Shown here in pieces: positions 1,322 to 52,708 of a DNA stretch of 64,000 bases. The number at the start of each line of letters is the position of its first letter. Positions within the stretch are counted from its first letter, which is position 1. The notes under the pieces were generated by a model. The model had not been told where the DNA came from. It made no database searches and saw only the letters and a program-made list of their open reading frames with translations. Origin of the DNA: Notamacropus eugenii (taxonomy: Eukaryota > Chordata > Mammalia > Diprotodontia > Macropodidae); contig NC_092879.1 of assembly GCF_028372415.1 (NCBI RefSeq), positions 95,142,241 through 95,206,240 of the forward strand, given 5' to 3'. Both the position numbers and the translations under genes were made by a program.

Positions 1322-1333
1322 ACTCCGTTTCCT
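1322..1333 (-). promoter_or_regulatory. AGTR2: Splice acceptor and short 5' leader of the AGTR2 coding exon
   Basis: On the minus strand 'ttgtcaatttcag' ends at 1332 and is followed by 'gaaacggagt' and then the ATG. The exon therefore begins at 1331. This fits the conserved AGTR2 layout, in which noncoding 5' exons are joined just upstream of the start codon. Confidence 0.75.
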
Positions 1334-1734
1334 GAAATTGACAAAACAAAAGCATTTTGAATGTTCAAATCTTAGAGCAGATTTTTAATTTAATATTTTA
1401 CCAAAAAAGGCTTAATGTTTACCAAAAGGAGAAGTAATTAAATACAATAAGGCTGAATTCTGCCTTGGTGGGTGAGGGGACGAATGGATTATTCTGGTAA
1501 ACAATTAGGGATCATATGAGAAAAATGACTAAACTACTCATACCCGTTAACCTAACAATGCCAATACCATGTGTATACCTGGAAAATACCTCTACCCCCA
1601 GAGAGGTAATGACAGAAAAGGTCTGTATTTACCCAAATATTTCTGTACTAGCAGAAAACTGGAAAACAAAGTATGTTCAAGCCCTGACTTTAGGGTGAGA
1701 CTTGAATAGGTCTTGAATTTCAACTTTGCCATAC

Positions 1735-1865
1735 ACCACTTTCATGATCCTGAAAATCACTTTACCTCTCTGCATATCATTTTCCTCATCTGTCAAATGA
1801 GGGAGTTAGATTGGCAAACCTCCAGGGTCTCTAAGCTCATAATGCTGTGATCCTATTAGCCTATG
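1735..1865 (+). repeat. MIR-like SINE fragment
   Basis: The order 'cactttacctctctg', 'ttcctcatctgtcaaatgag' and 'agggtctctaagctc' matches the MIR core and 3' part in plus orientation. It is strongly diverged and truncated at its 5' end. Confidence 0.6.
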
Positions 1866-1922
1866 AAGTGTCCATTGATCAGAAAATGTCAATCATGTAA
1901 TAAACAAAGGGCATCGATAAAT

Positions 1923-2160
1923 GTGGTAGCTGGGTGGCACAGTGGATAGAGTGCTGGATCTGGAGTCAGGAAGAACTGAGTTCAAATCTGGCCTCAGACA
2001 CTAGTTGTGTGACACTGGGCAAGTCACTTCACCCTGTTGGTCTCAGTTTCCTCATCTGTAAAATGAGCTGGAAGAGGAAATGGCAAACCACTCCAGTATC
2101 TTGGCCAAGAAAATCCCAAATGGGGTCATGAAGAGTCAGACATGACTGAACAACAACAAG
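1923..2160 (+). repeat. Full-length marsupial tRNA-derived SINE (WSINE1/MAR type)
   Basis: The head 'tagctgggtggcacagtgg', the middle 'tctggcctcagacacta' and the tail 'gcaaaccactccagtatctt' through 'agtcagacatgactgaac' are all present, ending in a CAA-rich tail. It is only mildly diverged, so it is one of the younger SINEs here. It lies within the probable AGTR2 intron. Confidence 0.88.
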
Positions 2161-3376
2161 ATCAATAAACTTTGTTAAAAAAGAAAAAGAATGGGATCAA
2201 ATCTCAGCCTGGGTGACCCTGAACAAGTTGTTTGATTTCCTCATTTCAAGTCCCTTCCAACCCTATCTGTAATGTTATGGATTATGTTTCTCAAGGGAGA
2301 GAAGGCAATATTTTCTCAGACATGGCAAAACAGAAATTGACATTCGTGAATGAATTGAAAGTTCTAAAACAACACCAAGGAAAAGACATTTTCTTCTCTG
2401 TCCTTTTCTTTTTCCTTCTTCTGCCCTATTCACCATCACCCCCATTCCCGCCCCCCAACCCCCACCACCGCCCTTCATATTTTCCACAGGCTTAAGGGAA
2501 AAGGAGCTATTTAAGAAGATTAGCTGTGGGAAGAAAGTGTACAAAACAGAAACAGAATGGAAACTCAGAAAGAAGAAAAGTCCATGTTACAAAGAACCTG
2601 GTTCACACTTCTGCCTCTCCGTATGGTCTTTGGATACCACAGTGCTGCCTGCTTTAACATGAGAAAATTTCCCATTACAAGTTCCTGTAGGTAAATAGTT
2701 TCCAAACCTTGAAGGAGGTCTTCATGTTAAATTACAGCATTTTAGATGGTCTTCTGTGGGGGCTGTTGGATTGGGATCAGGTAGAAACAGCTCCTTGGTG
2801 ATGACAAAATGTGATACAGCATCTCCCAGTTGGACAATTTCAGGTTAATTGAGCCACCTTTGAGAAGTACTAATACCCAAGCCACACATTTTCATGATAC
2901 AAATATATCGGTATCTATTTAATATGCTGCTGTTATTTTGGAATCATGAAAAAGCTAAAGGTAAATGAGTCCCAAGTATTCCTATGAGAAGTATAAAAAG
3001 AACCCGGAACATGGTTTGTGAGTTTAAAATACTGTCAGCTGTCAGCCAAGATGTGTCTTAGAAACAAAGAAAATAATTTGGGGGACAGTTCTTTGATTGC
3101 CCTGACCTAACCAAGGCATCCGAAAACAACTAAAAAATGTACCATTTGAAGGTCGACCAGTGACTTGAGTTGAAAATGTAGTTAAATGATCATCAATCAG
3201 CTTCCCTAATTCCCCACTCCTTACAGTTGCAGAACACTGAGTCGATCTTTCAGATATTTGTGGGATACTGTTATTAATGAGGATAAAAAGGCACATTACC
3301 TTGTGCCCTGAAATATTATCATATAGTTCACTTTATATTTCCCAAAGTTAATTACATGTAAATATCTCAGACTTAC

Positions 3377-3443
3377 CTTAAAAATGTAGGCTGAAAAATG
3401 TTCCACAACTCTGCTCTTCCTCTGGACTTCAGAACATAAGAGC
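3377..3443 (-). other. AGTR2: Candidate AGTR2 5'UTR exon ending in a consensus donor
   Basis: On the minus strand 'TTTTTAAG' is followed by 'gtaagtctgag', a near-perfect 5' splice site cutting after 3377. A plausible acceptor, 'gatctgcag', lies 66 nt upstream. AGTR2 genes have short noncoding 5' exons before the coding exon, so this is a good candidate for one of them. The 5' boundary is a guess. Confidence 0.35.
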
Positions 3444-3724
3444 TGCAGATCTCTGGTTTCCTTCTTAATATGTTCAGTTTGTCCACTGGGAGTCTTGAAC
3501 CGACATAATTTGCTGGCTGACTTCTGAACACGTGCCAGCTTTCCAGAAATTTTTTTTTTTTGGCAGTAAAACATCCATCTGAAATTCTGCCTGCCCTGAA
3601 TCATGAGAGCTCATCCAAATCAATCACACCCCCACTCCCAAACAAAGCACAGTTTCCACAAGTCCACAAATAATCTTGAAGTTGATAGCTCAGTTTAGGG
3701 AAGGAATATCCTCTTTACTTCCAT

Positions 3725-3845
3725 AATCGCCTCCTCCCTTTTCCCTGATGTTTATATTCTAAAATGAGTTGGGCAGGGGAGGGGGAATTATGCAAACATC
3801 CCACGGTTCTGGGCTACCAACGCCCTTGGCAATTTGCATCCTTGA
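3725..3845 (-). promoter_or_regulatory. AGTR2: Candidate AGTR2 promoter with TATA box and octamer motifs
   Basis: Read on the minus strand, a perfect octamer ATGCAAAT (3839-3832) is followed by the reverse-oriented octamer-like GTTTGCAT (3797-3790) and then by TATAAA (3756-3751). This block precedes the candidate 5'UTR donor at 3377 by about 350 bp. The distance and strand suit an AGTR2 promoter, with a start near 3725. No repeat covers the block. Confidence 0.35.
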
Positions 3846-5034
3846 ACTTCTCGCTTATATCTGATATGATTGGACATTAGGATTGGATCCATCATTCGAG
3901 AAACATGAAAAAGATAATATCTAAAGTGCAATCTATGAGTATGCTCAAATTAATATCTTACTCTTAAATAAACAAGCATCATGCTGGGCGCTGAGGGTAC
4001 AAAGACAAAACATAGGAGCCAACATGTTACATTGGAAAGTGGGGTGGGGGGAGTCCCAGGACCAGAATTCTAAGCCCATCACTTCTTACCTCTGTGACCT
4101 GGGACCTTTTACCTCCTCACTGGCAAAATTAGGCAGTTGCGATCTAGTTTGAACTCCGTTATTTCTGATTTCCTAAAGTGGTTTGCCCACAGTTCTAAAG
4201 GAATCAGTAGCAAACTAATTATAATTTCAATGTTATGATATTTCTCCCTTACCTCAGCAAGTCTTCCCTGCCTATAGCTAAAGAATTTCTTTAGTAAGAC
4301 TTGAAGTGTATTCGGTGGAGAAGGGAGGCAAATGGGGGCGGGGAAGATGACTTGCAAGTGATGGAAAGGTGGTATTTACACACTGAATTTCCTCTCAAAT
4401 TTCAAGTTTGAGAATTAGGAAAGAGGAAAAGCTCGTAACTTCTGGAGGAGAAAGGGAAGCCCCCCTTCCAATTTCACCACAAACACATTGATTCATTTTG
4501 CTTAACTGTATTTATTTGTTATAAGAGAGAGTTGGGGAGGGGAACTGCAAGTCGTTTGGAAGCAATTGTGATATAAAAATACATTTTTTTCTTTAGGGAA
4601 AGGAGGGAAAGAAGCAGCAGGACTTTTCTCCTGGTCCCAGGGAGAGGCAGCTGCTGGAGGGAGGAATTGCAGAAAGGGTCAGTACTAACCAGCTCTCCAC
4701 TCCCTTTACCTCAGCCAATGGCAAACATCTGGTTACTCTTAATTTAACTCTGTCTGGGATGGAAAGAGCAAAGTTCGGGATATTCGGAAAGGTTTCTGTA
4801 TTTGCAGGGAATTTGCTCCTTGCAAGGGGCAAAAATAAAAATATTTGTGTCTCTGGGTATTGGGGGTTGAGGTGGGAAGGAGGCCTTTATGTAAGAAAAA
4901 TCTTTTTCTCAGTTTCTCTCAAAATGTGTGGAGGGGAAACGTATGATTGTGTATAAGGTGCATCAACTCAGAGGAGAGAGCATGCAAGCTAACAGCACAT
5001 ATTTTGCTGGCACTTTAGGTGAGGAGGCATTTTG
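3846..5034. other. Mostly unique sequence upstream of AGTR2
   Basis: No gene is supported. A short piece at about 3965-4015 ('atgctgggcgctgagggtac') resembles the old 'constant-width' repeat seen elsewhere in the window. 4050-4140 is a weak MIR-like piece. The remainder is unique. Confidence 0.5.
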
Positions 5035-5225
5035 CCCCCCTTATCTCATTGGATCCTCACAACAACCCTATGAAAGATAATGTTGTCATTCTGATTTTAT
5101 AGATTAGGAAACTGAGGCACAGAGGGGTTGAGTGATGTAGTTAAAGTCCCATAGGTAGTGAAGGTCTGAGGCAGCATTTAGATGCAGGTCTCTCCAACAC
5201 CAAGTCCCACATGCTAGCCACAAAC
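5035..5225 (-). repeat. MIR-type SINE, antisense
   Basis: The strings 'tcatttgatcctcacaaca'-like, 'ggaaactgaggcacagagg' and 'gcaggtctctccaacacc' appear in the order of a reverse-complemented MIR. It is diverged by eye by about a quarter. Confidence 0.75.
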
Positions 5226-5559
5226 GCAAATATCCCTGCTGCCCTTAGCCCTTCTGGAGTGAGCATCTATGGATCATCTCTCTCACGCCTCTTATAGAGA
5301 AACCCCGAGGAGGTCTGGGCAGAAAGTCTGTCCAGTACCTCAGGGATATGTGGCTTTTACCAGCCCAGAGGAGCAGAGGGACTTTGTGTGCAGTTCTTTA
5401 GTCTTCCAGAATGGTGAGTGCTGACGTAAATGGAGTTGAAAGAACCATCCACTTCCCAGAAGATGAAAAGAACATTGACTGTCTTTCTTCATTATTTTCA
5501 GAAGGAAAATTTCACAAGTCTGAAAAACATTTCGCAACTATAGGGAGTTACCAAGCGAA

Positions 5560-5690
5560 GTATATCTGTGTGTGTGTGTGTTTATATATACATATGTGCA
5601 ATGTGTACACATAGGTGTCTGTAATAGACACACATGGGTGTGTATGTGGACATATATAAATACATAACATATATTATAGAGAGACAGATA
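5560..5690. repeat. TG/TA low-complexity tract
   Basis: An imperfect (TG)n stretch passes into alternating TA/CA sequence such as 'tatatatacatatgtgcaa'. It is degenerate and contains no coding frame of note. Confidence 0.8.
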
Positions 5691-5999
5691 GGGACAGCTG
5701 AAGCCAAAAATCCAGTCTATGCCTATGTTGGGCAAAGCCGTTGACAGTTAAGTCAACAACATAAATAGAATGGTATGTAGAGTAAGTGCCTCTCCCACTT
5801 GTGGAAAAATATATGCTTTTTTTTTTAAGTAAAAGACAGACTTTGCAAAGTCTAAGCCATTGGATTTAGCATTCCCAGTGTGTGCTGCCTTCCAGAAAAA
5901 GCACAGCTGGGTTATAGGAATTCAGTCCGAGCCATAACTAAAGAGTCACCAAGGCTTTTCTCGAGGTGACAAATTTAGAAGGTGATGAAATTATTTCAA

Positions 6000-6260
6000 G
6001 TCCAGCAGCAACAGAACAACAGACCTTAGTATCTAGTTAACAAGAAAGCTTATTTAAAGTGGGAAGCTACAATATGGCCAATGGGGCTGAGCTCCCTCCA
6101 GGCCCACCTTCGGCCTTCAGCACTATATCCTCCCTGGCAACCACTGCCACAACTCCTACCCCCACAGGGAAGCATCCCAGCCCGCCTCCCTCTGCTCCAG
6201 GTTAGGGCCCAGCTCAGGGGGGTTTGTGGTGCTTGGCACAAGTGTGAGATTCCCTAGTTA
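6000..6260. repeat. Unclassified interspersed repeat, copy 1
   Basis: The phrase 'agaccttagtatctagtta' and its surroundings recur at about 13840-14040 ('agagcttagtatctcgtcag'). A matching later block, 'ccctagttacccttcgg' against 'cctagttatggctccgg', follows at similar spacing. I cannot name the family. Confidence 0.4.
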
Positions 6261-6549
6261 CCCTTCGGAGCTAAGTCACATAGATGACTTGGCATTCACA
6301 TTGATTTTCCAGCAAAAATGCTGCTTGACCAGGGCCTCCCTAATGAAGTTTGAGGCCCAGGACATTCTGGGCAGGGGAGAGAAGAGGAAAGGTAGAGATT
6401 CATGGCAAGGTCTAGACTAGAGTGTGCCCTGTACCACATGGAGACCACCCCACTCTCACATACACAGATAAATAAATTTAAATATATTTGAAATAAATGC
6501 AAATTGATTGGAGAGGGGGTAGGGGAGAGGGAGGAAGCATCAAGCAGTG

Positions 6550-7075: not shown

Positions 7076-7249
7076 TTAGTATGTATGTGTGCCCATATGG
7101 GTGCCTCTGGTCTCCTTAGCATCCTCCACATGCAACCATGCTCACACTGCCCCTCAGTAGCTGGTTGACTCTCTGAAGTACCACCCAAACCAATCAGCTA
7201 CTGTAACTTTAACTCCTTAATTTGGAGTTAAAAGAGTTTCCCAGGTCTG

Positions 7250-7345
7250 CCACATCCCATCTTTGTGGCCCTGGGCAAGTCACTTGACCTCTTGGGGCCT
7301 CAGTTTCCTTATCTGTAAAATGAGGGGAGTGTTTTGACTAGCAAA
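7250..7345 (+). repeat. MIR-like SINE fragment
   Basis: It contains 'ccctgggcaagtcacttgac', 'cctcagtttccttatctg' and 'taaaatgagggg', which is the CORE region of a MIR-type SINE in plus orientation. Confidence 0.75.
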
Positions 7346-7384
7346 GTCGGTAAACCCCAAGGAGATCAAAGACAAACAAAAGTC

Positions 7385-9652: not shown

Positions 9653-9787
9653 TTTGGGCAAGGAGATCAGGGTTAACTGACTTGCCAGTGTCACACAGCT
9701 AATCAAGTATCTGAGGCCAGATTTGAACTCAGGTCCTCCTGACTCCAGGGTCAGTGCTCTATTCATTGTACCACCTAGCTGTCCCCT
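9653..9787 (-). repeat. Marsupial SINE, antisense, 5' portion
   Basis: The reverse complement begins 'ggggacagctaggtggtac' and continues through 'ccctggagtcaggaggacct' to 'ctgtgtgacactggcaagtc'. This is the 5' half of the same SINE family as at 1923. Confidence 0.85.
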
Positions 9788-10469: not shown

Positions 10470-10711
10470 GATCTGGAACCCAATTGCCAAGGACTCCACT
10501 CTAAGTCGACCCAAACCTGTCTGACAACCTAGAAGCAAATAAGAATGACTAGCCACCAGGAAAATAGGACCCGACCAGCCCTCCTGCTGCCTAATTATTC
10601 CCACTTGAAACAATCACCTTCTTACCATGGGGCACCTACTCCTATAAGTCAGGTTGTCCAACAGATTTGGGTCAACTTAGAGTGGAGTCCTTGGCAACTG
10701 GGTTCCAGATC
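10470..10711. repeat. Large inverted repeat: 61-bp arms around a 120-bp loop
   Basis: The left arm at 10470-10530 and the right arm at 10651-10711 are reverse complements with 5 mismatches in 61 (92%). Both outer ends start 'gatctggaaccca' read inward. The homology stops abruptly at 10470 and 10711, and I see no target-site duplication flanking it. Confidence 0.93.
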
Positions 10712-33005: not shown

Positions 33006-33770
33006 AGTTAAACCTACCTTTGAGAAAATACTTGTGCTGCTCTATAACAGTGAGATGTGGAACCCTGCTGCCTCCAAAGAACTACCAATGTATATCCCAC
33101 AGAGACACATAGTAGATATGAGTAGACCACAATATATAACCAATGAAGACTTCCAAAGAATGGCAGTAAATGAAGTCATCAAAGAATTATGATAGGAAGA
33201 AAAGATGGGCTGGCAGCTAGGTGGCTCAGTGGAGAGAACACTGGGCCTGGAGTCAGGAAGATCTGAATTTAAATTCAGCCTCAGACATTAGCTATGTGAT
33301 CCTGGGCAAGTCAGTTAACTTCTCTGTGCCTTCATCTACTGGAGAAGGAAATGGCAAACCACTCTAGTACCCTTGCCAGGAAAACCCTGCGGACAAATAT
33401 TGGCAAGCCATGACTGACAGGGTCACCAAGAGTCAGACATGACTGAATGACTGAGCAGAAACAACAAAAAGAAGTCAGAAAGGAATTAGGAAGAACATAC
33501 GGGCTGGTCCCATGACAAGAGAAAAGACACCAAGCAGAGAACCAGAGGGCTCTATGGGTATGCTTGCAATGTCAAGGGAAAGTGAGGAAGTCTTCCAGAA
33601 CAGTGGGTGGACCCCCGTGGTGAACTTTGAGGAAGCCATGCCAAGAGTAGGCCAGGATGGGCAGGCAGGTATGGGTCAGGCCCTCTGGCATGTGGGGGAC
33701 TCTGAGGTCCATTTGAGTATTGAGTACATAAAAGGAAAATTAGGCATAAACCTACAGGATTAACAAATGA
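33006..33770 (+). repeat. RTE-like LINE remnant split by a SINE
   Basis: 'gtgctgctctataacagtga' followed by 'gatgtggaaccctgctgcc' resembles the RTE 'LLYGAETW' segment. After the SINE, 'gggctggtcccatgacaaga' fits the later 'GH-ARM' part. The match is loose and the family call tentative. Confidence 0.35.
33207..33468 (+). repeat. Full-length marsupial SINE (WSINE1/MAR type)
   Basis: The head 'ggcagctaggtggctcagtg', the middle 'gggcctggagtcaggaagat', the core 'gatcctgggcaagtcagtta' and the tail 'gcaaaccactctagtaccct' to 'agtcagacatgactgaatga' are all present. It is inserted inside the RTE-like remnant and so is younger than it. Confidence 0.88.
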
Positions 33771-34150: not shown

Positions 34151-35143
34151 GTTACAGGTGTGCTGAGTGAGGCCAGAGGGAGTAGACTGGCATGCCCTTC
34201 CCAGTAATGGTGGCAGAGTAGATTTGATCACGGTTCATGAAGAAGATGGCCAGGGAGTAGGGAATGAAGCAGTCACCAGGCAGGATGTGGGGCCCCAGGG
34301 TGGAAGTTCTGAGGATGAAAGGGCCTAGTCTTTGGTCTGGGGACAAGGCAGTGACACCAAGAAGATGACCAAAGAGCTCATCCGGTGCTCAGGCCCTTCT
34401 AGCTCTGCACCAATGAGTTCTAAATCCTGTGACAAAAGGGACACAAAGGAGCAGATGATACATGGTTTATGTTGACATTCACTTATGCGCACAGAAATAG
34501 AGGGAAAGTATATTTAATTGGTTTTGTCACTATCCAAAGTTAAATGTAGAAGAAAGCCTAAAAAGACCCGATTTCATCTTCCCAGCTGCATCTTTGGAAT
34601 GAAGGAGAAGACAAAGTGGAGGGGAGCCCTGGATTCGTGGGCCCCGGCATGCAGCAGGCTGTGTAACTCCCATTCGGCCCCCGGGGACACGAATGCTTAT
34701 TTTCACTGATGGCAAAATGATTCTGTTCCAACCGAAAGGAAGTGAGGATCAATTGTAAGATTAGCTAACTAGTCAAAGTGCTGTCTGGAGAGTCTCAAAT
34801 CACCCACGGAAAGTGAAACATCCCAAGAAAGCCATTGCTAGGCAATATCTTCCCTCTTCTGTGTTTCTAAGCACTGTGTACTGCCAGTGATTTCCTAGTG
34901 GGATTCAAGATGCTGAGAAAATAGAAATATTTGGCTAGGAATAGGAATGTCTATCCTTCAGGCTTCCTACAGCCACAGGACACATTGTTGCTGCCCTGAA
35001 TATCAGACCCATCTGCCAGAGTCACCATCCCAAGGACCCCAATCGATCCTCAGAATCTTGCCCTAACTATGCCCTGGGAACTGACCATTCTCACTGAAGT
35101 TCCCAACATGGTTTTTGGCTTCTCATAGGAACAAGTCAGCCAA
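34151..35143. other. Unique sequence with one protein-like minus frame
   Basis: On the minus strand about 34390-34155 is open and reads like ordinary protein (for example HILPGDCFIPYSLAIFFMNR). I cannot match it to a family, and the frame ends beside an old repeat. It is left unassigned. The rest of the interval shows nothing. Confidence 0.35.
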
Positions 35144-35247
35144 CCTTCCTTCCTTCCTTCCTTCCTTCCTTCCTTCCTTCCTTCCTTCCTTCCTTCCTTC
35201 CTTCCTTCCTTCCTTCCTTCCTTCCTTCCTTCCTTCCTTCCTTCCTT
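35144..35247. repeat. Perfect tetranucleotide microsatellite (CCTT)26
   Basis: It holds 104 bp of uninterrupted CCTT units (AAGG on minus), a pure polypyrimidine/polypurine tract. Its purity suggests recent expansion and likely length polymorphism. Confidence 0.98.
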
Positions 35248-35339
35248 GTCTTAACCAATTCAATAATACTACATGATCCTCTATCCTTGAATCCCTTGCC
35301 CCCTTCTCCTGTTTCTCTTCAAGCTTTCCCAAAAGGCCA

Positions 35340-37690
35340 AATGTGGGTTACCTCCACCCTCTGCTTGCACTCTGCTGAATGCTGCTGGAGGAAGTCACAC
35401 AGCCTTGCTGGCTGAGCATGGTACAAATGGAAGGACTCTGTTTTCAACCAAGCCCTTATTTCTACACAGCGATCCTTTGATTTCTTTAGTCTCAGATCAC
35501 CTCTCGATCTCCCTCCCCACAGAGGTGATTCCAAAGCTCTGCTTTCTTTAAGCCTCATGTGCTACTCCTTGTCTTCATTCTCAGCTGAGAACCTCATGCC
35601 CTTTACTTAGAAAATCAAGGTCATCTGGTATGAGATCTCCTTTCTCCCTTACTTCACACTTCCAAAGCTTTTGATTTCACCCCCAGCTTGCTTTTCTTCT
35701 GACAAATAAGTGGCTCCCCTTCTTATCAAGACCAACCCCTCTACTTGAACTCTTGATCCTTTCCCTTCCTGGAGATGTCAGGGATTATTATTCCTGGGCT
35801 TTCTCTCATCCTTTCTCTTCACTTCTCCATGGGCTCCCAGATCCTGACATCCCCTACCTAAAGCTATCCTCCTCTTTCCCTTTCACATTGAAATTCCCAT
35901 GATCCATTTCCTTTCCTTCTACTCATTTTTCAACAGTCTCAGGGTGGTGGAGTCTCTTGCCCCAATAGAAAGGGATCTCTCCTCAGTTACAGGTGACGAC
36001 TTAAATGATAATCCAGTGACCTTTTCTGGCTGATTGTCCTGTGATTCCTCAGCTTCTAGCCCTACATCCCCATCATCTTTCTCTCTTTTCTCTTGACTTT
36101 CTGCTCTGTCAGTTCTTCTTTCCTGTCTTGACCAGTGTGGTCCAGAGGAAGGAATGTTGGGTCTGGAATGAGAGGACACAGATTGCATGTTTGCCTCTAA
36201 CACTGACTCACTGTGACCCTGGGCAATTCATTTAACCTCCCAGGTTCCAATTTCCTCATCTGTCAAAAAAAAAAAAAAGTTTCAGGGACTCGATGGCCGG
36301 TGAAGCCTTCCAGCTTCAAGTGATGTTCCTGAGATTCTTCCATTTCTAGCTTTAAGGTCCCTGTCACCATTCTCTCTTTTCTATTGACTTTTCTGCTTCT
36401 TTGCCAGCCTGCACATCCTCCCTCACGCTCCCTCTCATTAAGTGTAGCTGCCTCCCAAGTGGACCTGTGGCCTTTTGTCTTTATTTTTTCAACTTATTTT
36501 TCAATGAGCAAGCATTTGTTTTTCTCTCCCTCCCACCCCACCACACCCCTAATTTAAAAGAAAAAAAATTCTCAGAGCAAAATATGGAAAATCAATCTCT
36601 GTGTTGGCTCCGTCTCATTCTGCTCTTCTTATGGTCTTTTCTCTTCTCTCTCTTGGCAGTTTCATCAGTGCACCTGGCTTCAATGATCATGTCCACGTAG
36701 AAGATGGTTCCTAATTCTGTATAACCATCTCTCACCATTCCTCTGAACTAAAGTCCTGTATTCCCAACTACATGTTGGACATGGGTACCCCTAAGCTTCA
36801 TTGCCATCTCAGGCTCATGTCCAAAGCAGACCTCATCATCTTTTCCCTGAGCCCACCCCTCCTCTGAACTGTTCTGTTTTTTCTTGCTCACCCCCCCCCC
36901 CCAGTCTGCCAGTTCACAACCTCAGAGTCATCCTCACCTCTTCCCTCTCTTTCAGCCCCCTCCCCCATAGCCAATAAGAACTCAGTCTTGTTGTCTCTAC
37001 CTCCAAAACATCTCTTCTCTCCACTCCCACCACCACCACCCCAGTTCAGACCCTCATCACTGCTTTCCTGGACTATGGTACTAGGCTCTTAACTGATCTT
37101 CCTACTTCTCATCTCTTATCTCTCTAGTCAATTATCCACACAACTGTCCAAATCCGATCTAACCTTATCTCTTCCTCATTTTACAATGTTCAGTAGCTCC
37201 CTGGGATAAAATGCCTCTAGAATAAAATGCAAATTCCTCAGCTAGGCATTTCAAGTCTTTCCAGATTTACTTCCCATTACTTCCCATCAGGTACTTGGGA
37301 CCTTCCTCACTTTGTCTCTGAATTTAACCTTCGTCCCCTCCTCTTTGTACAGCTCTCTCCCTTCCCCTCTGCTTCTCAGTATCCCAAACTTACTTCAAAG
37401 GCTCAGCTCGCATATAGCCTTCGATATGCATAGCCCTGCTTAATAATTGCTTTATCTGGCTGTCTGTATCTATCTGTATCCAAGCCTGTCTGCAGCTTTT
37501 CCTGATCAGCCCTCCTCTCGGGAGCTCTCTTCCTTCCTCCCATCATCTTTTCTTTACTTCTCCATGTACCTGTCACCTCCCCCCACAAAATGAAAAGTCT
37601 TTAAAGGGAACTGCTTTGCAGCTTTGCCTTTGCATCTGAGCATCCCAAACAGTTCCTTGCATACAGCAGGTGCTTAATAATTCTATGTTG
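35340..37690 (+). repeat. Long L2 LINE remnant
   Basis: This is the most extended L2 in the window. Later landmarks are 'acagacctcatcatc'-type text near 36825, 'agtcatcctcacctcttccc', 'ccctcatcactgctttcctg', 'ctccctgggataaaatgcct' and the tail 'cttgcatacagcaggtgctt' with 'aataattctatgttgg'. The upstream half (35340-36400) is pyrimidine-rich text typical of the L2 ORF but strongly decayed. A SINE interrupts it. No intact reading frame remains. Confidence 0.65.
36125..36330 (+). repeat. MIR-type SINE within the L2 remnant
   Basis: 'tgaccctgggcaattcattt', 'ccaatttcctcatctgtc' and an A14 run are seen, followed by 'gccttccagcttcaagtgat'. It is inserted into the L2. Confidence 0.7.
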
Positions 37691-37849
37691 GATTAAATTA
37701 AACTGAAATCGCTCAAAGGATCTGTCTATTCGCTAGGAAAAACACATACAACTACATGGACTTCTTTCGATAGATGCTTTGCAAACGCTTGTTCACTTTG
37801 AATGGCATTCACTGGTATGAAAACTTCCAATAATTAACTCATTTCAGTC

Positions 37850-40169: not shown

Positions 40170-40189
40170 ACATGGCCACTGGGTGGCGC
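40170..40189 (+). promoter_or_regulatory. CTCF-like motif in the SINE head
   Basis: 'TGGCCACTGGGTGGCGCC' agrees with the CTCF consensus TGGCCACCAGGGGGCGCTA except at four or five positions. It keeps CCAC and GGCGC. It was matched by eye without a score. Confidence 0.4.
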
Positions 40190-40410
40190 CACAGTGCACA
40201 CTGGGGTAGAAAGACTCCTCTTCCTGAATTCAAATGTGGCCTCGGACACTCATTAGCTGTGTGACCCTAGGCAAGTCACTTCACCCTGTTTGCCTCAGTT
40301 TCCTCATCTGTAAAATGAGCTGGAGCAGGAAATGGCAAACCACTCCAGGATCTTGCCATGAAAACTGGGTGACAAAGAGTCAGACACAACTGAAAAGTGA
40401 CATCACATCT
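40170..40410 (+). repeat. Full-length marsupial SINE carrying a CTCF-like head
   Basis: The head 'ggccactgggtggcgccaca', the core 'tgtgaccctaggcaagtcac' and the tail 'gcaaaccactccaggatctt' to 'agtcagacacaactgaaaag' are present. The head substitutions bring it close to the CTCF consensus (see findings). Confidence 0.88.
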
Positions 40411-41060: not shown

Positions 41061-42477
41061 GACTGGGTGGGGAGCCCCCAAGTCTGTGCTGCTGGCTTAG
41101 GGAGTGAGATGGTGCCCTCAGGAAAGGAAGTTCATAAACTAAAAGATGAAATAAAGTGAGTGAAGAAACCTCAGGTTGTATTTACTGCAGGAGAGGAGGA
41201 AAAACCAGAACTTGAAAGAGAACGAATTGTTTTGGACGGGCTGCCTTTGAAAGTCTCTGAAAATGCCGATGTTTTATTAAACAGTTAGCACTGAACCCCA
41301 ACACGATCAACCGCCCTTGCCTAGTAACCACCTCTCATTTCATTCACTGCAACATTTAGGATGCTACTTTTTTTCCTCGCTCCCTTTAGGCTCCCACAGG
41401 GATTCCTCGTGCGCCTTTTCTGCCTCATCGGTGGGCCTGGGCCATGCGGACTGTTCTTTGCGTGATTTCCTCCTTTTTCTTTGAAATTGTAACTTTTCTG
41501 TTTCAGGGGCTCATACTTTAAAAATATTTTCATATTTATTCACTCAAGTTTTTCTCATCCTGAATTTTTTTCAAAGAAAGGATTAACTTTTCCATTTTTA
41601 CTTCGTTTTCAATTTTGATCCTTTAAATCCTTTTTTAAAAGATTGTCTTGTGTCAGGTTTCATATAAGCCTCTCCTGTCGATGGGCCCGTCTCTTAGCTT
41701 CAGAATTATTCTCAATGCCAAATGTCTATTTTTGGGTGCAGCTCATTACTAAATTAAGGCTGTGTTGATGGAATAATATAAACGTGTGATTGATTTTGAC
41801 TTATTGGGTGTTGTTGCCAATTGCTAGTATATTCATATAGTTAGTGTCAGTGACTTCCTATATCTGCGTGCTCTAATCGGCACACTTGCTAGGCACTGAT
41901 CCTTTTAAACCTTGTCTCCTAGTGTTCCCATGTGATACTGGAGGTCTAGTAGCAGGATCTAGTAACACTGTGGGGTTTTGAAATACTTTCACCACAGAGT
42001 AGTCAGTGTCCTGACCCCATGGGGGTGATGGAACAAAAGGTGATGCTTATTGTGGGTAACAAGACCCACTGGGACTTCAGATCCTCAGGGTGGAGACAGA
42101 GAGTAGGAATAAAGCTAGTCTAAGAACACTGAAAAGAAATATGGTCGAGTTGAAGGACTACAAAGTAAGTAATAGGAAGGTCAGGTTTGGGGGACCATCC
42201 AGGAATGACCCAGTTCATTGGATAATTCAAAAATATCGAAAATAGGGACAAAAGAGAGCACTGGGAATCCATCTCTGCCCAACCCCCCCCCCCCCCCAGG
42301 CAAGAGAGCTTAATTAGCAAAGGAGAATTTGCTGGCAGCGTGAAAGGAGGGGCTTTTTTAAATCAGTAAGAGCAGCCTCACCTGGCCTTAAAGTGAATGG
42401 TAGGCCTGTGTGGCAGAAAGAGAAACCTGGCAGAAGGCAGGCAGGGTGGCGGCTAACTAGTTCCTCTTTCCTGGCAG
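41061..42477. other. Unique sequence with a poly-C run
   Basis: A C15 run lies at 42283-42297. 41320-41660 is a repeat-free T-rich block. No gene or known repeat is assigned. Confidence 0.45.
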
Positions 42478-44520: not shown

Positions 44521-44915
44521 ATTATTGTACCTTTTAACTCTCAGTTTTGTAATTATGTGGCCTGGGAGCCGGGAGACCTGGATTGGGCTAGATGCCAATA
44601 GTGAATGAAGACGTGATCTCTCCCACCCAGGTCAGACATTCTCTAATTTCAGATTTGACCTTTGATCAGAATCACCCCTTGCAAGGCCTGACTTTACAAA
44701 CCGGAAATACTCTGAAGCAAACAGGCAGTTTTTCCATGTGGGCCCAGATGGAAGCTAGGAAAGGAGGCAGAGACAGAATGTGCCAGGCCAGGGAAGGGAG
44801 TGTTTGAGCAGTAAGAACAATTGGGCTATTGAAAAGTTTGGATGTCATGGAATGTACTTCCCAGTCCAGGGTTTCCTGAAATGAAGGCACTCAGTTTCCC
44901 AGAGATGTGGCAGGT

Positions 44916-44929
44916 GCGCCACCTCATGG
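44916..44929 (-). promoter_or_regulatory. CTCF-like motif left of the minisatellite
   Basis: On the minus strand the site reads CCATGAGGTGGCGC, matching CCASYAGRKGGCRS at 12 of 14 positions. It lies in unique sequence 183 bp from the start of the tandem array and points away from it. It was matched by eye only. Confidence 0.45.
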
Positions 44930-45024
44930 TAATGAAAGGATACAGCAGGAAGGATGGTGAGAAAGAGCCATGGACCCACTGCAAAATGTTATGCGGGTCC
45001 ACATAGCTTGGGTGTCCAGGGTTG

Positions 45025-45111
45025 GCACATGTATACACATGTATACACAATGTGCACTCAGACACAAATGTACACTCACACGTATACACATGCACACACA
45101 TACTTACACGC
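45025..45111. repeat. Degenerate CA/TA-rich tract leading into the minisatellite
   Basis: The alternating sequence 'cacatgtatacacatgtata' continues to 'cacacatacttacacgcg'. It is a likely source of the GCAT/CACA words that make up the adjoining 14-bp units. Confidence 0.8.
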
Positions 45112-46126
45112 GCATGGTCACTTGTGCATGAGCAGTCACACATGCGCACCTGTGCATGCCCACACATGCATGGACACTCACGCATGGGCACTCGTGCATG
45201 CCCACATGTGCATGAGCGCTCATGCATACCCACACATGCATCTGCACACATGCATGGGCACTCTTGCATGCCCACACATGCATCGGCACACATGCATGGG
45301 AACTCTTGCATACCCACACATGCATGGGCACTCGTGCATGCCCACATGGGCATGGGCACACATGCATGGGCGCTCTTGCATACCCACATGTGCATGAGCA
45401 CTCTTGCATACCTGCACATGCATGGGCACTCGTGCATGGGCACTCATGCATGCCCACACCTGCATGGGCACTCGTGCATACCCACGCGTGCATGGGCACA
45501 CATGCATGGGCACTCGTGCATGCCCACATGTGCATGAGCAATCTTGCATACCCACATGTGCATGGGCACTCATGCATACCCACACATGCATCGGCACACA
45601 TGCATGGGCACTCTTGCATACCCACTTGTATGCGCACCTGTGCATGCCCACACATGCATGGGCACTCACGCATGGGCACTCGTGCATGCCCACATGTGCA
45701 TGAGCGCTCATGCATACCCACACATGCATCGGCACACATGCATGGGCACTCTTGCATGCCCACACATGCATCGGCACACATGCATGGGAACTCTTGCATA
45801 CCCACACATGCATGGGCACTCATGCATACCCACACATGCATGGGCACTCGTGCATACCCACATGTGCATGAGCACTCTTGCATACCTGCACATGCATGGG
45901 CACTCGTGCATGGGCACTCATGCATGCCCACACCTGCATGGGCACTCGTGCATACCCACGCGTGCATGGGCACACATGCATGGGCACTCGTGCATGCCCA
46001 CATGTGCATGAGCAATCTTGCATACCCACATGTGCATGGGCACTCATGCATACCCACACATGCATCGGCACACATGCATGGGCACTCTTGCATACCCACT
46101 TGTGCATGGGCACTCACACACTCGTG
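45112..46126. repeat. 14-bp minisatellite, about 72 units, with a ~480-bp higher-order duplication
   Basis: The array divides cleanly into 14-bp units of the form GCATNNNCACNNNT. 'gcatgggcactcgt' and 'gcatacccacatgt' types tend to alternate, giving a 28-bp dimer. A 488-bp block (45144-45631) is repeated from 45632. The second copy is 474 bp, exactly one 14-bp unit shorter, and is otherwise nearly identical. Because 14 is not a multiple of 3 and the unit lacks stops, long open frames arise on both strands (up to 355 codons, 45104-46171 minus). These are composition artefacts. The array is the only sizeable tandem repeat in the PLS3-AGTR2 interval. Confidence 0.97.
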
Positions 46127-46477: not shown

Positions 46478-46540
46478 GTCAGTCATGTCTGATGCTTTGT
46501 GACCCCTCAGACTCAATAATCCCAGCAATATCTGAAGGCC
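46478..46540 (-). repeat. Marsupial SINE 3' fragment, antisense
   Basis: 'cagtcagtcatgtctgatgc' and 'tttgtgacccctcagactc' are the reverse of the SINE tail 'gggtcatgaagagtcagaca'. Confidence 0.65.
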
Positions 46541-46640
46541 ACCTGTAGATGTGCTCAGTCACTCTCGTCACTAAGTTCTATTCTTTTCATCAGTTTCCTT
46601 TGTATTTAGATTGAAATGTCGATTGACACTGCTCATCCTT

Positions 46641-46656
46641 GCCACAAGATGGCGCC
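46641..46656 (+). promoter_or_regulatory. CTCF-like motif with embedded YY1-like core, right of the minisatellite
   Basis: 'GCCACAAGATGGCGCC' matches CCASYAGRKGGCRS at 13 of 14 positions. The inner AAGATGGCGCC also resembles the YY1 site. It lies in unique sequence about 515 bp beyond the array and points away from it. It is the best such match I found in the window. Confidence 0.5.
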
Positions 46657-48114
46657 ATTGGCCCTCATCTTCTAAATCCCAACTCCACCCCCCTCACTTG
46701 CAGCCCCAGGCCAGCCAGGCATGCTCAAAACACTTCCAAGGACGAGCTTCTGAACCCAATTAAGACATTCCAAATTGAAACCATGATCTTGGCAATCATT
46801 TCTCTGTTTGCTCTTCTAAACTCGTTCATGGAAGGCAAGTCTTTGAATGCAATTTTCAGCCCCTGGAATTTTCAGTGTTTCTTTCTTTCTCTGATGTTTT
46901 ATGAGACTAAAATGGATCCTGAAGAAATATCCACCCTGTTCAAAAAAACTACATGCAGAAGCAGGGGATGGAATGGTGGGCACAGGGGCAGGAAGACCTG
47001 GGGTCAAATGTCATTTAATTGGTGGATACCCACAGCAAATCATTTCATAAGATCATAGCCTCATCGAATTTAGACCTGGGAGGGACCTTCACTGGCCTTA
47101 ATTTACAGATGAGGAGACTGAGGCCATCTATGAAATGGGAATAAGAATACTGAGAGCTGTTGTGAGGATCAAATAAGTGTGGAAAGTATCACTTTGTGAA
47201 TGGCTTTGGTGTTTTTGTTTTGAAGTACGGGTAGGAGGTAGACCCTGAGGCTTTGGGTGTAGTGGGATGCATGCTAAGGAAAAGGTGACTTTTAAATCCG
47301 GAATTCTGTGTTTCCCGGGGCCATTCCCAAGTCCTTCCTCATCTAGTTTGATGTTTTGTAGCTAGCTTACCAAATACCTCTAAGGGTCACTCCACAGGAA
47401 ATGTGACCAGCCTCGGAGGAGGGCCAAAGCAAATCTGGGCTGCCCAGGAAATGGCAGACGGGAAGAACTTGGGCGGTGTGGCTCAGGGACCTGCCTGGAG
47501 GGAGGGGCAGCACCCGGCACAGCAGACAAAGAACTCGGGCCTGGCTCAGGAAACCAGAAGCCAGACATATTAAAAACACACATGTGGTGTTTGGAGATGG
47601 AAATGAAAACTGAACACTCATATTTGTTGGGTGCACCAAGAGGCAACAGACAAAGGCTGTAAACATGATTTACTGTGCTCATATTTTGCTTCAACTGGGC
47701 TCATCAAAGGAGCTTTCCAACTGCCACCAGTCCCACCCTTCAGCCCCTTTCAGATGGGGTTGGCCCTGTTAGCCTGAGTCTGGCCCATCTGGATGGGGGG
47801 GTGGGAAGGAGCATTCCCTCAGTGCTGCTGATGTGAGTCGGGGCCAAATGAAAGTGGAAGCTGACTGGAAAGCAAGGATTCCAAGGGTGTGGGAAGCCAT
47901 TAACGCACCCTAGGGGACAGAACCAAAATTAGGTAGAACAGTGATGGATAAATGATAAAAGGTAAGGAGGAAAATGCTGAATCATATCCGGGATGGTAGG
48001 TGTTAGAGCCTCCAAGGAATGGTCAGCATCAGAATTGGAGGCAGGCATTTAGGGTTAGGGTTGAGAGCAGAGTCCAAGGTGGAATCCAAGGCTCGGAAAC
48101 ACCACTGACTCTAA
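46657..48114. other. Mostly unique sequence with small SINE pieces
   Basis: 46960-47045 is a diverged plus SINE piece. 47050-47125 (minus) and 47125-47210 (plus) are MIR pieces. The rest is unique, with no gene. Confidence 0.45.
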
Positions 48115-48345
48115 ATCTCCCTCATTTTACAAATGGGGAAACTGAGACCTGGGGTCACGCAAAATGAGTATTAAAGCAAAGGCCCTAGCTCTGGCCTGCT
48201 GACTCTAGGCAGACTGAGTCTTTGTTTCATTTGGGAAAAGGAATCACCCAAGACAGTTATCCAGTCAATGCTGGAAGACCTCCAGTGCTCAGCATAATGC
48301 CTGGCCCACAATAGGAGCTTAAAAAATATTTGTTGATTGGCCTTG
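48115..48345. repeat. MIR fragment followed by L2 tail
   Basis: 'cattttacaaatggggaaac' with 'tgagacctggggtcacgc' is an antisense MIR. 'agcataatgcctggcccaca' with 'ataggagcttaaaaaatatt' is a plus L2 3' end. Confidence 0.6.
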
Positions 48346-48759
48346 ACTATTTCGGCCTGTTAGGAATTGGAGGAGATAAGGGCGACAAGCTCCAAAGTCA
48401 GGTGGACCCCCAAATCTAGGGGCAGTTAATCACAAAGGCCCCTGGAGTCTCAGAGGCATCTTTTGAGAGGGAAACCCATGAGAACAATCCACACATTAGG
48501 AATGGTCTTAGCCATTGCTAGGAACCCTTCCCAGAAATCTTTCATCCTCTGGTTGAATTTGGAGAGAAGTTAGACATTAAGATTCTTGGGAAGGAAGTAG
48601 CTGAGCTCGAATCCATAAGCAAGTCTGTAATCTTGGTAGTTAGAACAAGTTAGAATAAAAGGAAATGTGTGAAAAACAAAAGCCATCAATGGTGACATTC
48701 TGCAGTCTAGGAAAAGGAGAGGAGAGCCCCTGAAGGCCCGTCATCCATCTTCCTCTCTG

Positions 48760-49465
48760 CAGACTTCCTTCCTTGGAGATCATGTTCATTCAGGTCTCTT
48801 CTGCATTCACCTCTGGGCACATGACTCACTCCCAAATCTCTGTGCCCAGCCCTTGTCTCCCAGGCTTGATATTTTGGAAGTATCCTGGACTCTTCCCTCT
48901 TCCCCATTCTCCAAATTCACTCCATTGTCGATTCAGTCAATTGTGCTTCCTCATGTCCCCTCATCGGTGCTTACACTGCCCCCAACTGGCTTTGGTCCCT
49001 CATCATTCAGTAGGACTACTGTGGTAGGCTGCTAACTGACCTCTACCTCATGCACAAGATGCACCATGTCAGTCCCCTGCCCATCCAGAAGCTTCAGTGG
49101 ATCCCTATTACCTGGAGGATAAGAGAAATTTCTCAACCCTGATTTAAGGCCCTCCATAATCTGATTTCACCCAGGGAGGTGAGCAGCCTCCTTACCTATT
49201 TCTTCCTTTCTAACCTATTTTACACAGAGAGAAAAATGGAAAATACAGCTTTGAATCTTTCTTCCATCTAGATGTGTATGATACACACACACACATATAT
49301 ATACACAATATATGTATATATCTACATATATGTATACATGTGAATACATTTATTTCTATTTCTATATAGTTACCAGGTTCCCAGACTGTCTTTTGCCTCT
49401 TTTTGCATCCCCAGTGCTTGGCACAGTGCCCAGGATAGGAGGCACTTAATATGTTTGCTGATGGA
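48760..49465 (+). repeat. L2 LINE 3' portion split by a CA/TA microsatellite
   Basis: 'tatcctggactcttccctct', 'agaagcttcagtggatccct', 'attacctggaggataagaga' and 'taaggccctccataatctga' belong to the L2 body. After the dinucleotide tract (about 49275-49345), 'gtgcttggcacagtgcccag' closes the L2 3' end. Confidence 0.75.
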
Positions 49466-49479
49466 CTGGGCGTAATGAA

Positions 49480-49770
49480 CACGTGTGTTGTGGAATCAGA
49501 CTTGAGTGACTGAATGATCTCAGTCACAGCCTTACCTTCCTGAGTTTTGGCTTCCTCGTTTGTAAAAACAGGACGATGTTTTATACTCCTCATCTTCCAA
49601 GGTTGTTGTGAGCACCTTGAGAGGGCTCCAGCAATGTGGATGGTTATTAGATTATTCAAATCCCGCTACTGCTTATCTGTATGACCTTAAGCTAGTCCCT
49701 TCTCATGGAGCCTCAGTTTCCTTCTCTGGGGAATAAAACTTGGATTAGATGGTCTCTAGCATTCTGTGGT
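49480..49770 (+). repeat. Two adjacent MIR-type SINE fragments
   Basis: 'agttttggcttcctcgtttg' with 'taaaaacaggacgatg' is the first piece. 'tatgaccttaagctagtccc', 'agcctcagtttccttctctg' and 'tggattagatggtctctagc' form the second. Confidence 0.65.
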
Positions 49771-50519
49771 CATTATTATTATCACATGATCTGAACTTTG
49801 TTTCAATGTGTTTACTTTGTAATAAGTCAATATCATCGCAGTACTGCCCTCCACCATATTGTAATTCATAGGTTGGGTTGGAGCCAAATACAAAATGAGC
49901 AGCCTGAATTCTGTATTTCATGTCTTTATTCCCCACTAGGGCTGATTCGCTCCTTGGACTCAGATATGGTTAGGGGATGTTGAGGCTGGAAAAAAATTGT
50001 GGATGGGGAAAGGATTTGGTAACTGCCATGTGGGAGAGAGGTCAGACCCTCCTGGGCTCCAGAGGGCAAGGAGCAGTGATTGGGGTATGGGGGTGGGGGA
50101 GGGCTGCAGGGATGGAGCAGAGTTGCATGTGTTCTACTCTTTCCTGATGGAATGGAAACTCTCTGAGGGCAAGCATCTGTCTTTGTATCCTCTGCTTGCC
50201 ATATAGACGTTTGTTGATTGATACTGATCAAAGCTACTGAAAGGCTGATGTAGACTTGGCAAAGGGAAACTCCTCCAAAGTGTCAGTACGGATGCCTGCC
50301 TTGGGTGGTACCAGGTACTCTGTTGCCTCCAGGAAACTTCCAGGAAATGCTGGAGGGCTATGCTGGGGCTGGGGTATGGACTTTTGTTTAGCTGTACAGT
50401 GAATGAGCTGAGACACTGCTCCCTTCTGCCAGAGATTTGGGATTCTTTCACCTACTCTCCATTTTGGTTGACTTGTTCCCCATTCTGCAGCCTCCGAGAT
50501 ATGCTGCCTTCTGCCTCTG
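49771..50519. other. Mostly unique sequence with an L2 tail piece
   Basis: 50145-50225 ('aactctctgagggcaagcat' to 'cgtttgttgattgat') is an L2 3' end. No gene is seen. Frames near 100 codons overlap on the minus strand without recognisable features. Confidence 0.5.
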
Positions 50520-50740
50520 GTGAGACCTGGAACATACTTCTTTCTCAACTCTGCCTATAGGACCCCTTTTCTTGTTTCAAGGCTTAGTCCAGGTACCACC
50601 ACCTCCATGAACTCACCTCTGATTGCTACCCCCTGGAAAACCTTTGACATGAGCCCTCTCCTTTGCCTCATCCTTGTCTGTGTATGTAAGGCAATACCCC
50701 CAGATCAGCTCCTTTTGGGATTCCCTAGCACCCAACTGTT
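50520..50740 (+). repeat. L2 LINE fragment
   Basis: 'ttctttctcaactctgccta', 'caaggcttagtccaggtacc' and 'tccatgaactcacctctgat' are L2-type text in plus orientation. Confidence 0.45.
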
Positions 50741-50934
50741 AAGTAAATGGATTTCATTTCAGAGTGAGAATTTATCTGCTTCTTTGCCACTCCCCAGGAC
50801 AGGATGCTGATGTGAATATCTGGTTTTGCAATTATATTTATTTTCAGTGATTAAATGAGCATCATGACACAGAACAACATGGGGCATTTACCTCAGCTTG
50901 ACCATACTTGCATGAGCTGACTACTGAGGTTCTG

Positions 50935-51180
50935 GGGCACTCAGGTAGCTTAGTGGATAGAAAACAAGATTTGGAGTCGGAAAACAAGATTCAGATCTGG
51001 CTCCAGATATCTTCTAGTGGTGTAACTCTGGGCAAGTCACTTAATTCTACCTCAGTTTCCTCATCTATAAAATAGGGATAATAGCACTTACTTCACAGGG
51101 TTGTTATGACGATGAAATGCGTTAACGTTCCTAAAGGGCTTTGCAAAACTTAACAGGCTATATAAACGCTAACTATTGGT
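50935..51180 (+). repeat. MIR/THER1-type SINE, nearly full length
   Basis: The head 'aggtagcttagtggatagaa', the core 'tctgggcaagtcacttaatt', then 'agtttcctcatctataaaat' and the tail 'agggctttgcaaaacttaac' are in order. A short direct repeat 'aaaacaagatt' occurs inside it. Confidence 0.85.
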
Positions 51181-51659
51181 ATGATAATGTTGATATTAGC
51201 CACATAAGGCTTTCACAGTTCTGTGGTACCTTGAAAGTACTACTCTGTGGGACTGACGAGGTCCTATATTCTCCTCTCATAGGGATGTTTGTTTATAGCA
51301 GGGGGTCCCAAGACCAGTGGGCCTCTGGGCTCTGGTATCGTACAAAGATGGCAGGGCAGCTTGCCTTAACAGGTCAGCAGCTGCTACCACCGGTCAGCCA
51401 TTGCGAGTTCCCAGAGACCAATTGTTCCGTTCAGAAGATCTTAGGAAAGAGGAGCAGTCACGTTGGTGAGAAAGGCTCAGAAAATGCGGAGGAAGTTGCT
51501 GTTGGCCTTCATCCAGCCAGCCCCCAAGTTGGTGAGAAGGGATCAGGAAACCAGTCAGAAAAGCAGGTGGAGAAAGAACCAAATGTCGTGAAATCAAACG
51601 CGCAGAAGAGACCAGTTTGTACTTAAATGTTTTTTACTTGAACTAATATTTGCCACCCA
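51181..51659. other. Unique sequence downstream of PLS3
   Basis: A plus frame runs from 51141 to 51626, but its start lies inside the SINE and it shows no domain. Nothing is assigned. Confidence 0.4.
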
Positions 51660-52708
51660 ATTACATCACTTTTAATAGCTTAGAATAACAATATGATCTT
51701 GCAAATAGAGCAAACAGCTTGCCAAAGCAAGAGTACATTAAGACTTCTGGGTACATTATCTTCCTTCTTTGGTGATCACTGCTCCTCGTTTGCCGTGTAG
51801 ACAGTGTATTTATCTTGAGAATCGGCACACTGGCTCTACCCCCTACTTGACTCAAGCTGTTCATAGTACTCCCTCCCCTGAAAAAGAATTCTATTCAACA
51901 TTTTCAAATGAAAAAAAAAGTAGAAGACTTAGATCAAACGCTTCACAAAATGGATTCGTGAAGTTCAGTTTGTGGCAACACCTGCTAGTTGTCTACACTG
52001 GAAAAGCAGATGAAAGGTTACGATATATTCCCCACTCTCTAAAGGATGGATTCTACCTTGAAGATGCTTCTTTAAAGGGGCAGAAAGTGGGGAAAGGTAG
52101 CAGAGACTGCTGCTGTCTTGTTTATAAAAGAACCAGAACTTTTGGATGTACAAAAAAAAAGCACCGTGTAGAAAGCATACTCTAAAAGATCTTAGGAAAC
52201 AAGAGTCTTATGAAATCTTCCATCACTTTCTGCCAAGCAACTTCAAGTCTACAAAAACAAGCCCCGCGTGTCCCGAGTTGTACTATGCAAGTAGAACAAA
52301 ACTGTTCGATAAAATGTGAAATTATTGTCCAGTAGGATCCATACCAATCAATCAGAGAAAACCCAAGAGGTGGAATTCCTAAAGGGAAAATGGAGAAATA
52401 CCCTATCATAATTGGGAACCTCTAGCCTCGAAGGGGAGAGAGTCAAATTGTTTGGCTACGAATACATTTTGTGTGCACTTGACAAATGACACTTTCACTG
52501 TGTGTGGGAAAGAGCAGTTGTTTGTATCATAACTCCTCTCCCTGAGAACTCTGATACTAGTCTTGCAAAGCAAAACTTAAAGTCCTTTAAAGGTCAACAG
52601 TTCATAAGCCAACAGCATTTCATCCTGGAAATAGCTGATCTGGGAGTCATGCAGGGATGGGGTAGGGGGAGGAGGCAAGGGTTTCTGTTTGCATGAGGAC
52701 TGACTTTC
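51660..52708 (-). other. PLS3: Probable PLS3 3'UTR
   Basis: The stretch follows the PLS3 stop codon, is free of recognisable repeats for about 1 kb, and contains ATTAAA on the minus strand at 51676-51671, a usable polyadenylation signal near its far end. A length of about 1 kb is reasonable for PLS3. The exact 3' end is inferred, and AATAAA at about 50838-50843 is a more distal alternative. Confidence 0.5.

Follow-up and report, generated by a model that had tools for sequence, protein, structure and literature searches.

A compact marsupial PLS3–AGTR2 interval with one predicted CTCF/YY1 site directed toward PLS3 and no DXZ4-like macrosatellite in its sequence

The hallmarks of DXZ4 are CTCF binding that is specific to the inactive X chromosome and a superdomain boundary. 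Its CTCF motifs appear to point toward PLS3 in cat, human and mouse, a partly inferred generalization. The DXZ4 repeat units of cat and human are described as carrying their CTCF site in reverse direction (PMC8662614), the contacts of mouse Dxz4 are reported to run telomeric (PMC5899087), and the telomeric side of mouse Dxz4 is given as the Pls3 side (PMC3491370). DXZ4 is placed on the 3′ side of PLS3, and one survey reports a repeat 3′ of PLS3 in all the placental mammals that it covered (PMC3491370). In marsupials, X silencing is described as using RSX and not XIST. Our literature searches on DXZ4, marsupial or opossum, and Hi-C returned titles, abstract openings and passages that held nothing on the PLS3–AGTR2 interval in marsupials.

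Gene frame of the interval

The window, by which we mean the whole 64,000-base stretch of Notamacropus eugenii DNA that was analysed, contains no N and carries two genes:

170-1321, minus strand: AGTR2 coding exon (start codon 1319-1321, stop 170-172)
52709-62990, minus strand: PLS3, human residues 164-630, by tblastn with human PLS3 (stop 52709-52711)

AGTR2 occupies one exon, with 363 of 363 human residues aligned at 65% identity (tblastn with the human protein); the type-2 angiotensin II receptor is the top PDB match for this frame, and the AGTR2 of the didelphid opossum Gracilinanus agilis is 97% identical to the window's protein, the start at 1321 matching its start. The PLS3 exon pieces run from 62990 down to 52712, and because they cover human residues 164-630, the window ends inside PLS3 and the 5′ part of the gene lies beyond it. 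In the direction of transcription PLS3 comes first and AGTR2 follows, with a coding-to-coding distance of 51,387 bp; in human, the two genes lie several hundred kb apart. Elsewhere in the window, no Rfam family matched at gathering scores, and eight frames chosen from the 76 listed yielded no Pfam family at E 0.01.

The first-pass annotation had described a compact marsupial counterpart of the PLS3–AGTR2 interval, with both genes on one strand in human order and about 51 kb apart against several hundred kb in human. The genes mapped by tblastn and the 97% identity to Gracilinanus agilis bear out the marsupial source, the interval and its gene order, both genes being on the minus strand with PLS3 upstream; the gap agrees with the measured distance.

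Repeats and the 14-bp minisatellite

A self-blastn comparison of the window returned no repeat pair longer than 193 bp outside an array of about 1 kb and revealed no recurrent unit of more than 500 bp; most of the listed pairs fall in SINE copies recognized by our SINE profile. In a TRF search with periods up to 500, the only sizeable array was one with a 14-bp unit, the rest being about 110 bp or shorter. CpG islands were likewise not found, as no 300-bp segment of the window exceeded both a CpG o/e of 0.5 and 50% G+C. The placental 34-bp DXZ4 CTCF motif has no above-chance copy anywhere in the window; its best score there, 8.68, lies below the best of each of eight Markov sequences (9.36–14.96), and tracing a hidden DXZ4 unit by way of this motif was dropped.

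45141-46113, strand unassigned: 14-bp minisatellite made up of two nearly identical blocks, 45146-45629 and 45634-46103, by TRF and block alignment

The alignment of the two blocks has one 14-base gap and 464 identities among 470 aligned bases; with six differences between them, their doubling is therefore recent. The CTCF scan gave no match inside the minisatellite (best internal P 2.7e-3), and its candidacy as a CTCF bank was abandoned for that reason. Purine-pyrimidine alternation is 0.757 in the minisatellite vs 0.423 in the window, and the folding of one 140-nt piece is somewhat more favourable than that of its shuffled versions (z −1.99, with 7 of 200 doing as well); for a hairpin or Z-DNA function, these are weak hints. 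We regard the minisatellite as most probably a neutral bystander of the predicted CTCF site next to it, and one that changes fast.

Predicted CTCF sites

The window was scanned for CTCF sites with matrix MA0139.1, and the following matches bear on the interval:

46639-46657, plus strand: predicted CTCF site, 21.97 bits, P 2.3e-8
40173-40191, plus strand: strong predicted CTCF site in a SINE head, 21.73 bits (CTCF scan and SINE profile)
48974-48992, minus strand: predicted CTCF site, 15.07 bits, P 3.0e-6
44914-44932, minus strand: weak predicted CTCF site, 12.75 bits, P 1.0e-5

The match at 46639-46657, the top-scoring one of the window and present there in single copy, lies 525 bp from the right end of the minisatellite and 6,051 bp past the PLS3 stop. 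From its P value, the background expectation for such a score is about 0.003 per window. Inside it, at 46646-46656, lies an exact YY1 core, AAGATGGCGCC (the scan used the core AANATGGCGNC), which occurs nowhere else in the window on either strand. This core is expected 0.17 times in Markov sequences and is carried by 249 of 78,700 sampled CTCF sites that score 20 bits or more, in a test that was post hoc, run after the motif had been noticed. The plus-strand CTCF motif points toward PLS3, which sits at higher coordinates on the minus strand. Orientation toward PLS3 would agree by chance half the time.

With a SINE profile based on a single family, represented by just six copies, no match overlapped 46639-46657 at E up to 10, the nearest being a 28-bp tail fragment at 46478-46505 (E 0.063). 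Set against the 34-bp DXZ4 motif, the stretch 46637-46670 scores 3.50 (rank 14 of 127,934) and shares 16 of 34 consensus bases with the placental motif. When 6,000 CTCF sites scoring 18 bits or more were sampled, the IUPAC score of this stretch was reached by 1.5%, but its consensus identity by 7.0% and its 13-bp extension match by 6.3%, which makes the likeness weak.

Real genomes contain many strong CTCF matches. The window's three sites above 16 bits equal the count of the best among 30 Markov sequences (mean 0.53), and the match at 40173 was dropped as an old unique site because it is the head of a SINE, the profile matching 40172-40399 at E 2.9e-65 with that copy among its own six. Opossum SINEs are reported to carry CTCF sites, and CTCF and STAG1 ChIP-seq of opossum liver has been published (PMC3368268). 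The site at 48974 lies between the minisatellite and PLS3 and faces 46639; the site at 44914 lies 208 bp left of the minisatellite, divergent to 46639 and 1.7 kb from it. Given eight sites above 12.5 bits in the window, finding two within 600 bp either side of the array has a P of 0.010.

The first-pass annotation had seen no DXZ4-like macrosatellite, which holds for this sequence, where self-blastn repeats outside the array reach at most 193 bp. Of the one array with CTCF-like flanks that it described, the single sizeable array and the strong right flank (46639, P 2.3e-8) stand, and the left flank (44914, P 1.0e-5) is no better than chance predicts when 64 kb are scanned on two strands. A DXZ4-like role for the array finds no support, the array being a doubled 14-bp minisatellite with no CTCF match inside. 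For asking what preceded DXZ4, 46639-46657, where a strong CTCF match contains an exact YY1 core, offers a better start.

Proposed role, alternatives and comparison with known systems

We favour, at a probability of about 0.5, a reading in which the interval holds no DXZ4-like macrosatellite and one CTCF/YY1 site directed toward PLS3 is predicted to act in it. This predicted site, 6 kb past the PLS3 stop and facing PLS3, would be bound by CTCF and YY1, would likely halt cohesin, so that PLS3 would be kept apart from AGTR2, and may anchor a loop toward PLS3. In our reading, 46639 is probably a single-copy CTCF/YY1 anchor of the ordinary kind, located 3′ of PLS3. Since the interval lacks a DXZ4 repeat and has just a minisatellite and one predicted CTCF/YY1 site, DXZ4 is likely to have originated in placentals, where a site at this location may have been multiplied; placental DXZ4 would then be the later arrival. 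A bolder version, which we regard as doubtful, makes 46639 the single-copy counterpart of the element amplified into placental DXZ4, an inactive-X boundary seed next to a minisatellite that is unrelated to it and that, by having doubled recently, would show the spot to be prone to tandem duplication. If that version were true, the seed of the inactive-X boundary would have been kept in a marsupial.

A possible, if not preferred, account is ordinary intergenic DNA, in which the CTCF/YY1 match would be due to chance or be an unbound relic, and nothing would be connected with DXZ4. The lack of an above-chance 34-bp motif, the SINE head beneath the near-equal match at 40173 and the Markov sequences that also reach three sites above 16 bits are all consistent with this; the expectation of about 0.003 per window for the 46639 score, together with the exact YY1 core, argues against it. 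It is very unlikely that marsupials lost a former DXZ4-like array of which the compact interval is the scar, even though the interval is short next to the human one. The repeat reported 3′ of PLS3 throughout the placental survey would fit such a loss (PMC3491370), but degenerate copies are missing from the window, where no pair beyond the array is longer than 193 bp and SINEs account for most of the pairs listed, and the 34-bp motif is absent above chance.

Very unlikely, too, is a macrosatellite present in the animal and collapsed or dropped in the assembly. DXZ4 is reported as collapsed in EquCab3 (PMC10656420) and as incomplete in, or absent from, many assemblies (PMC8662614); however, EquCab3 is described as retaining one complete copy and three partial ones (PMC10656420), whereas the window has no N, no 34-bp motif match and no recurring unit above 500 bp. 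That the minisatellite is DXZ4's functional counterpart, acting by its DNA shape (Z-DNA or hairpins) instead of by CTCF, strikes us as highly improbable: its alternation and the folding of the 140-nt piece lean that way, but it has no CTCF match, spans about 1 kb and has doubled recently.

Under the favoured reading, the question of what preceded DXZ4 becomes the test of one 19-bp element, a single defined candidate site instead of a bank. Recognizing the minisatellite as free of CTCF matches and 40173 as a SINE head spares others the pursuit of the wrong parts.

DXZ4 is a bank of sites in kb-sized, CpG-rich units and carries a conserved 34-bp CTCF motif, whereas the interval has one site and no tandem array of such units, and the window has no match to that motif above the Markov null. 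Mouse Ds-TR near Dxz4 (PMC3491370) is, like the window's array, a minisatellite located 3′ of Pls3; compared by description, Ds-TR is about 30 kb and satellite-like, and the array here has a 14-bp unit and a length of about 1 kb. The SINE-borne CTCF sites described in opossum (MAR1_Mdo; PMC3368268) resemble 40173, whose SINE we infer to be of the MAR1_Mdo type, and are unlike 46639, which overlaps no SINE-profile match. Single CTCF or CTCF/YY1 insulators and loop anchors share with 46639 a strong, high-scoring lone motif between two genes (here 21.97 bits), and 46639 also has, as such sites do, a weaker divergent partner, 1.7 kb away; relative to single CTCF insulators, the exact YY1 core is the sole sequence distinction of this predicted site. 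With DXZ4/Dxz4, the interval shares its place between PLS3 and AGTR2, 3′ of PLS3, and 46639 shares a CTCF site directed toward PLS3, which appears to be the placental direction, and the joint presence of CTCF and YY1 motifs.

Gene anatomy of the interval

PLS3 precedes AGTR2 on the minus strand, and 51,387 bp separate the PLS3 stop from the AGTR2 start in a window that holds 0 N. The genes were placed using human protein sequences.

Genes and predicted CTCF sites
170-1321, minus strand: AGTR2, one coding exon
884-902, plus strand: predicted CTCF site inside the AGTR2 coding exon, 17.14 bits, P 8.7e-7
40173-40191, plus strand: predicted CTCF site in a SINE head, 21.73 bits
44914-44932, minus strand: weaker predicted CTCF site, P 1.0e-5
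46639-46657, plus strand: predicted CTCF site, 21.97 bits
52709-52711, minus strand: stop of PLS3, human residues 164-630 matched in exon pieces

Over its full length, the AGTR2 protein shares 97% identity with that of Gracilinanus agilis (Didelphidae), the next among the matches listed being placental at 65%, which indicates a marsupial source, most likely a didelphid. Among solved structures, the type-2 angiotensin II receptor comes closest. The window gave no RNA-family match at gathering scores, and no Pfam family was found in the 8 open frames scanned. The entire PLS3-AGTR2 space measures 51 kb here. For seven mammals, or eight by the figure legend, PMC3491370 places a tandem repeat within 28-110 kb of the PLS3 3' end; in mouse it lies 19 kb from the Pls3 3' end.

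Elsewhere, 26 perfect copies of CCTT (35144-35247) open a pyrimidine-rich stretch; several 500-bp windows within 35001-37750 contain 63-67% C+T on the plus strand versus a mean of 50% (SD 7%). The arms of a 61-bp inverted repeat, 91.8% identical, lie 120 bp apart (10470-10530 and 10651-10711).

The minisatellite and the search for a DXZ4-type array

No DXZ4-type array was found in the window by TRF (periods of at most 500) or self-blastn. TRF returned one sizeable array, a 14-bp minisatellite at 45141-46113. Self-blastn listed 25 repeat pairs outside it (the 22 of at least 60 bp were printed), the longest being 193 bp, and many repeat pairs coincide with SINE copies. The 34-bp motif that PMC8662614 gives for placental DXZ4 yielded nothing above chance when scanned across the window; the best score was 8.68 bits versus per-sequence bests of 9.36-14.96 in eight Markov sequences, and the top consensus identity was 20/34 versus 20-21. 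The window has no CpG island; its highest CpG o/e, at 41201-41700 (up to 0.78 in 300 bp, G+C 37-46%), far exceeds the average of 0.18, still without forming one.

The minisatellite consists of TGCATGGGCACTCG and variants, arranged in two blocks (45146-45629 and 45634-46103). Of 470 aligned bases, 464 agree between the blocks and 6 differ, with one 14-base gap, so the doubling is recent; given these differences, the gap amounting to one 14-bp unit, 45146-46103 may vary in length among animals and could be used as a marker. G+C of 45001-46000 is 55.5%, the array holds 26 CpG, and its purine-pyrimidine alternation is strong, 0.757 versus 0.423 for the window. No CTCF match lies inside the array, the best there having P 2.7e-3.

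Predicted CTCF sites

The MA0139.1 matrix gave 31 matches in the window at P < 1e-4 versus 12.8 expected, with 46639-46657 and 40173-40191 far ahead of the others. Ten sites exceed 12 bits (mean 3.6, maximum 6 in 30 Markov sequences) and three exceed 16 bits (mean 0.53); as the Markov maximum above 16 bits is also 3, the strong-site count is by itself unremarkable. The third-best match, 884-902 (+), is directed against AGTR2 transcription.

With the 44914-44932 site (-) 208 bp to its left and the 46639-46657 site (+) beyond it, the array lies between divergent CTCF motifs. Given the window's own site density, finding two sites that exceed 12.5 bits within the 1.2 kb of array flanks has P 0.010; since the 44914 site alone is at chance level, we grade this arrangement as a mere hint. 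Cat repeat B likewise has two CTCF sites pointing apart (PMC8662614).

At 40173 the CTCF site forms the head of a SINE with further copies in the window; the copy there matches the SINE profile (40172-40399, E 2.9e-65) and is one of the six from which that profile was built. Copies of this tRNA-like SINE family occur at 1932-2154, 9661-9777, 33218-33447, 40172-40399 and 50942-51077, and at least the one at 40173 has a CTCF-like motif in its head. The CTCF match at 55885-55903 resembles another SINE head by eye, the profile covering only the neighbouring 55800-55864. MAR1_Mdo-type SINEs bear CTCF sites in opossum (PMC3368268), and the window SINE probably belongs to that family.

No SINE-profile match overlaps the 46639 site at E up to 10; the closest is a 28-bp tail fragment (46478-46505, E 0.063), and the 221-bp surroundings are single copy in the window. 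The site includes AAGATGGCGCC; neither strand of the window has another exact fit to the YY1 core AANATGGCGNC, where 0.17 would be expected. Of 78,700 CTCF sites sampled at 20 bits or more, 249 contain the exact core, in a test run after the motif had been noticed.

A model for the 46639 site and its comparison with DXZ4

From the observed anatomy and motifs, a model can be proposed in which CTCF would bind at 46639 and halt cohesin coming from the PLS3 side, and the halted cohesin would shut off the PLS3 domain from AGTR2; YY1 may occupy the same bases, alternately or jointly with CTCF. Placental DXZ4 could have arisen through tandem amplification of a similar site.

Alternatively, an older array may have been lost in marsupials, or an array may have collapsed in the assembly, a collapse having a precedent in EquCab3 (PMC10656420). 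The strongest rival is plain chance as the source of the CTCF/YY1 match, which is possible.

The 46639 site resembles DXZ4 in place, 6,051 bp past the PLS3 stop, and in combining CTCF and YY1 motifs. It is oriented toward PLS3, and for the comparison of direction we assume the PLS3 strand in cat and human. On that assumption the cat and human sites point the same way (PMC8662614), as the mouse site probably does toward Pls3. Place and CTCF sites are what placental DXZ4 arrays have in common according to PMC10656420, and a review narrows the shared feature to one element in which CTCF and YY1 sites are paired (PMC6985041). The difference lies in sequence: the site fits 16/34 bases of the 34-bp motif consensus, and the family-marking sequence is absent. 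When 6,000 CTCF sites scoring 18 bits or more were sampled, 1.5% attained its IUPAC score for the DXZ4 motif, 7.0% its consensus identity and 6.3% its agreement over the 13-bp extension. We therefore rejected classing the site as DXZ4; it may function as one DXZ4 unit does.
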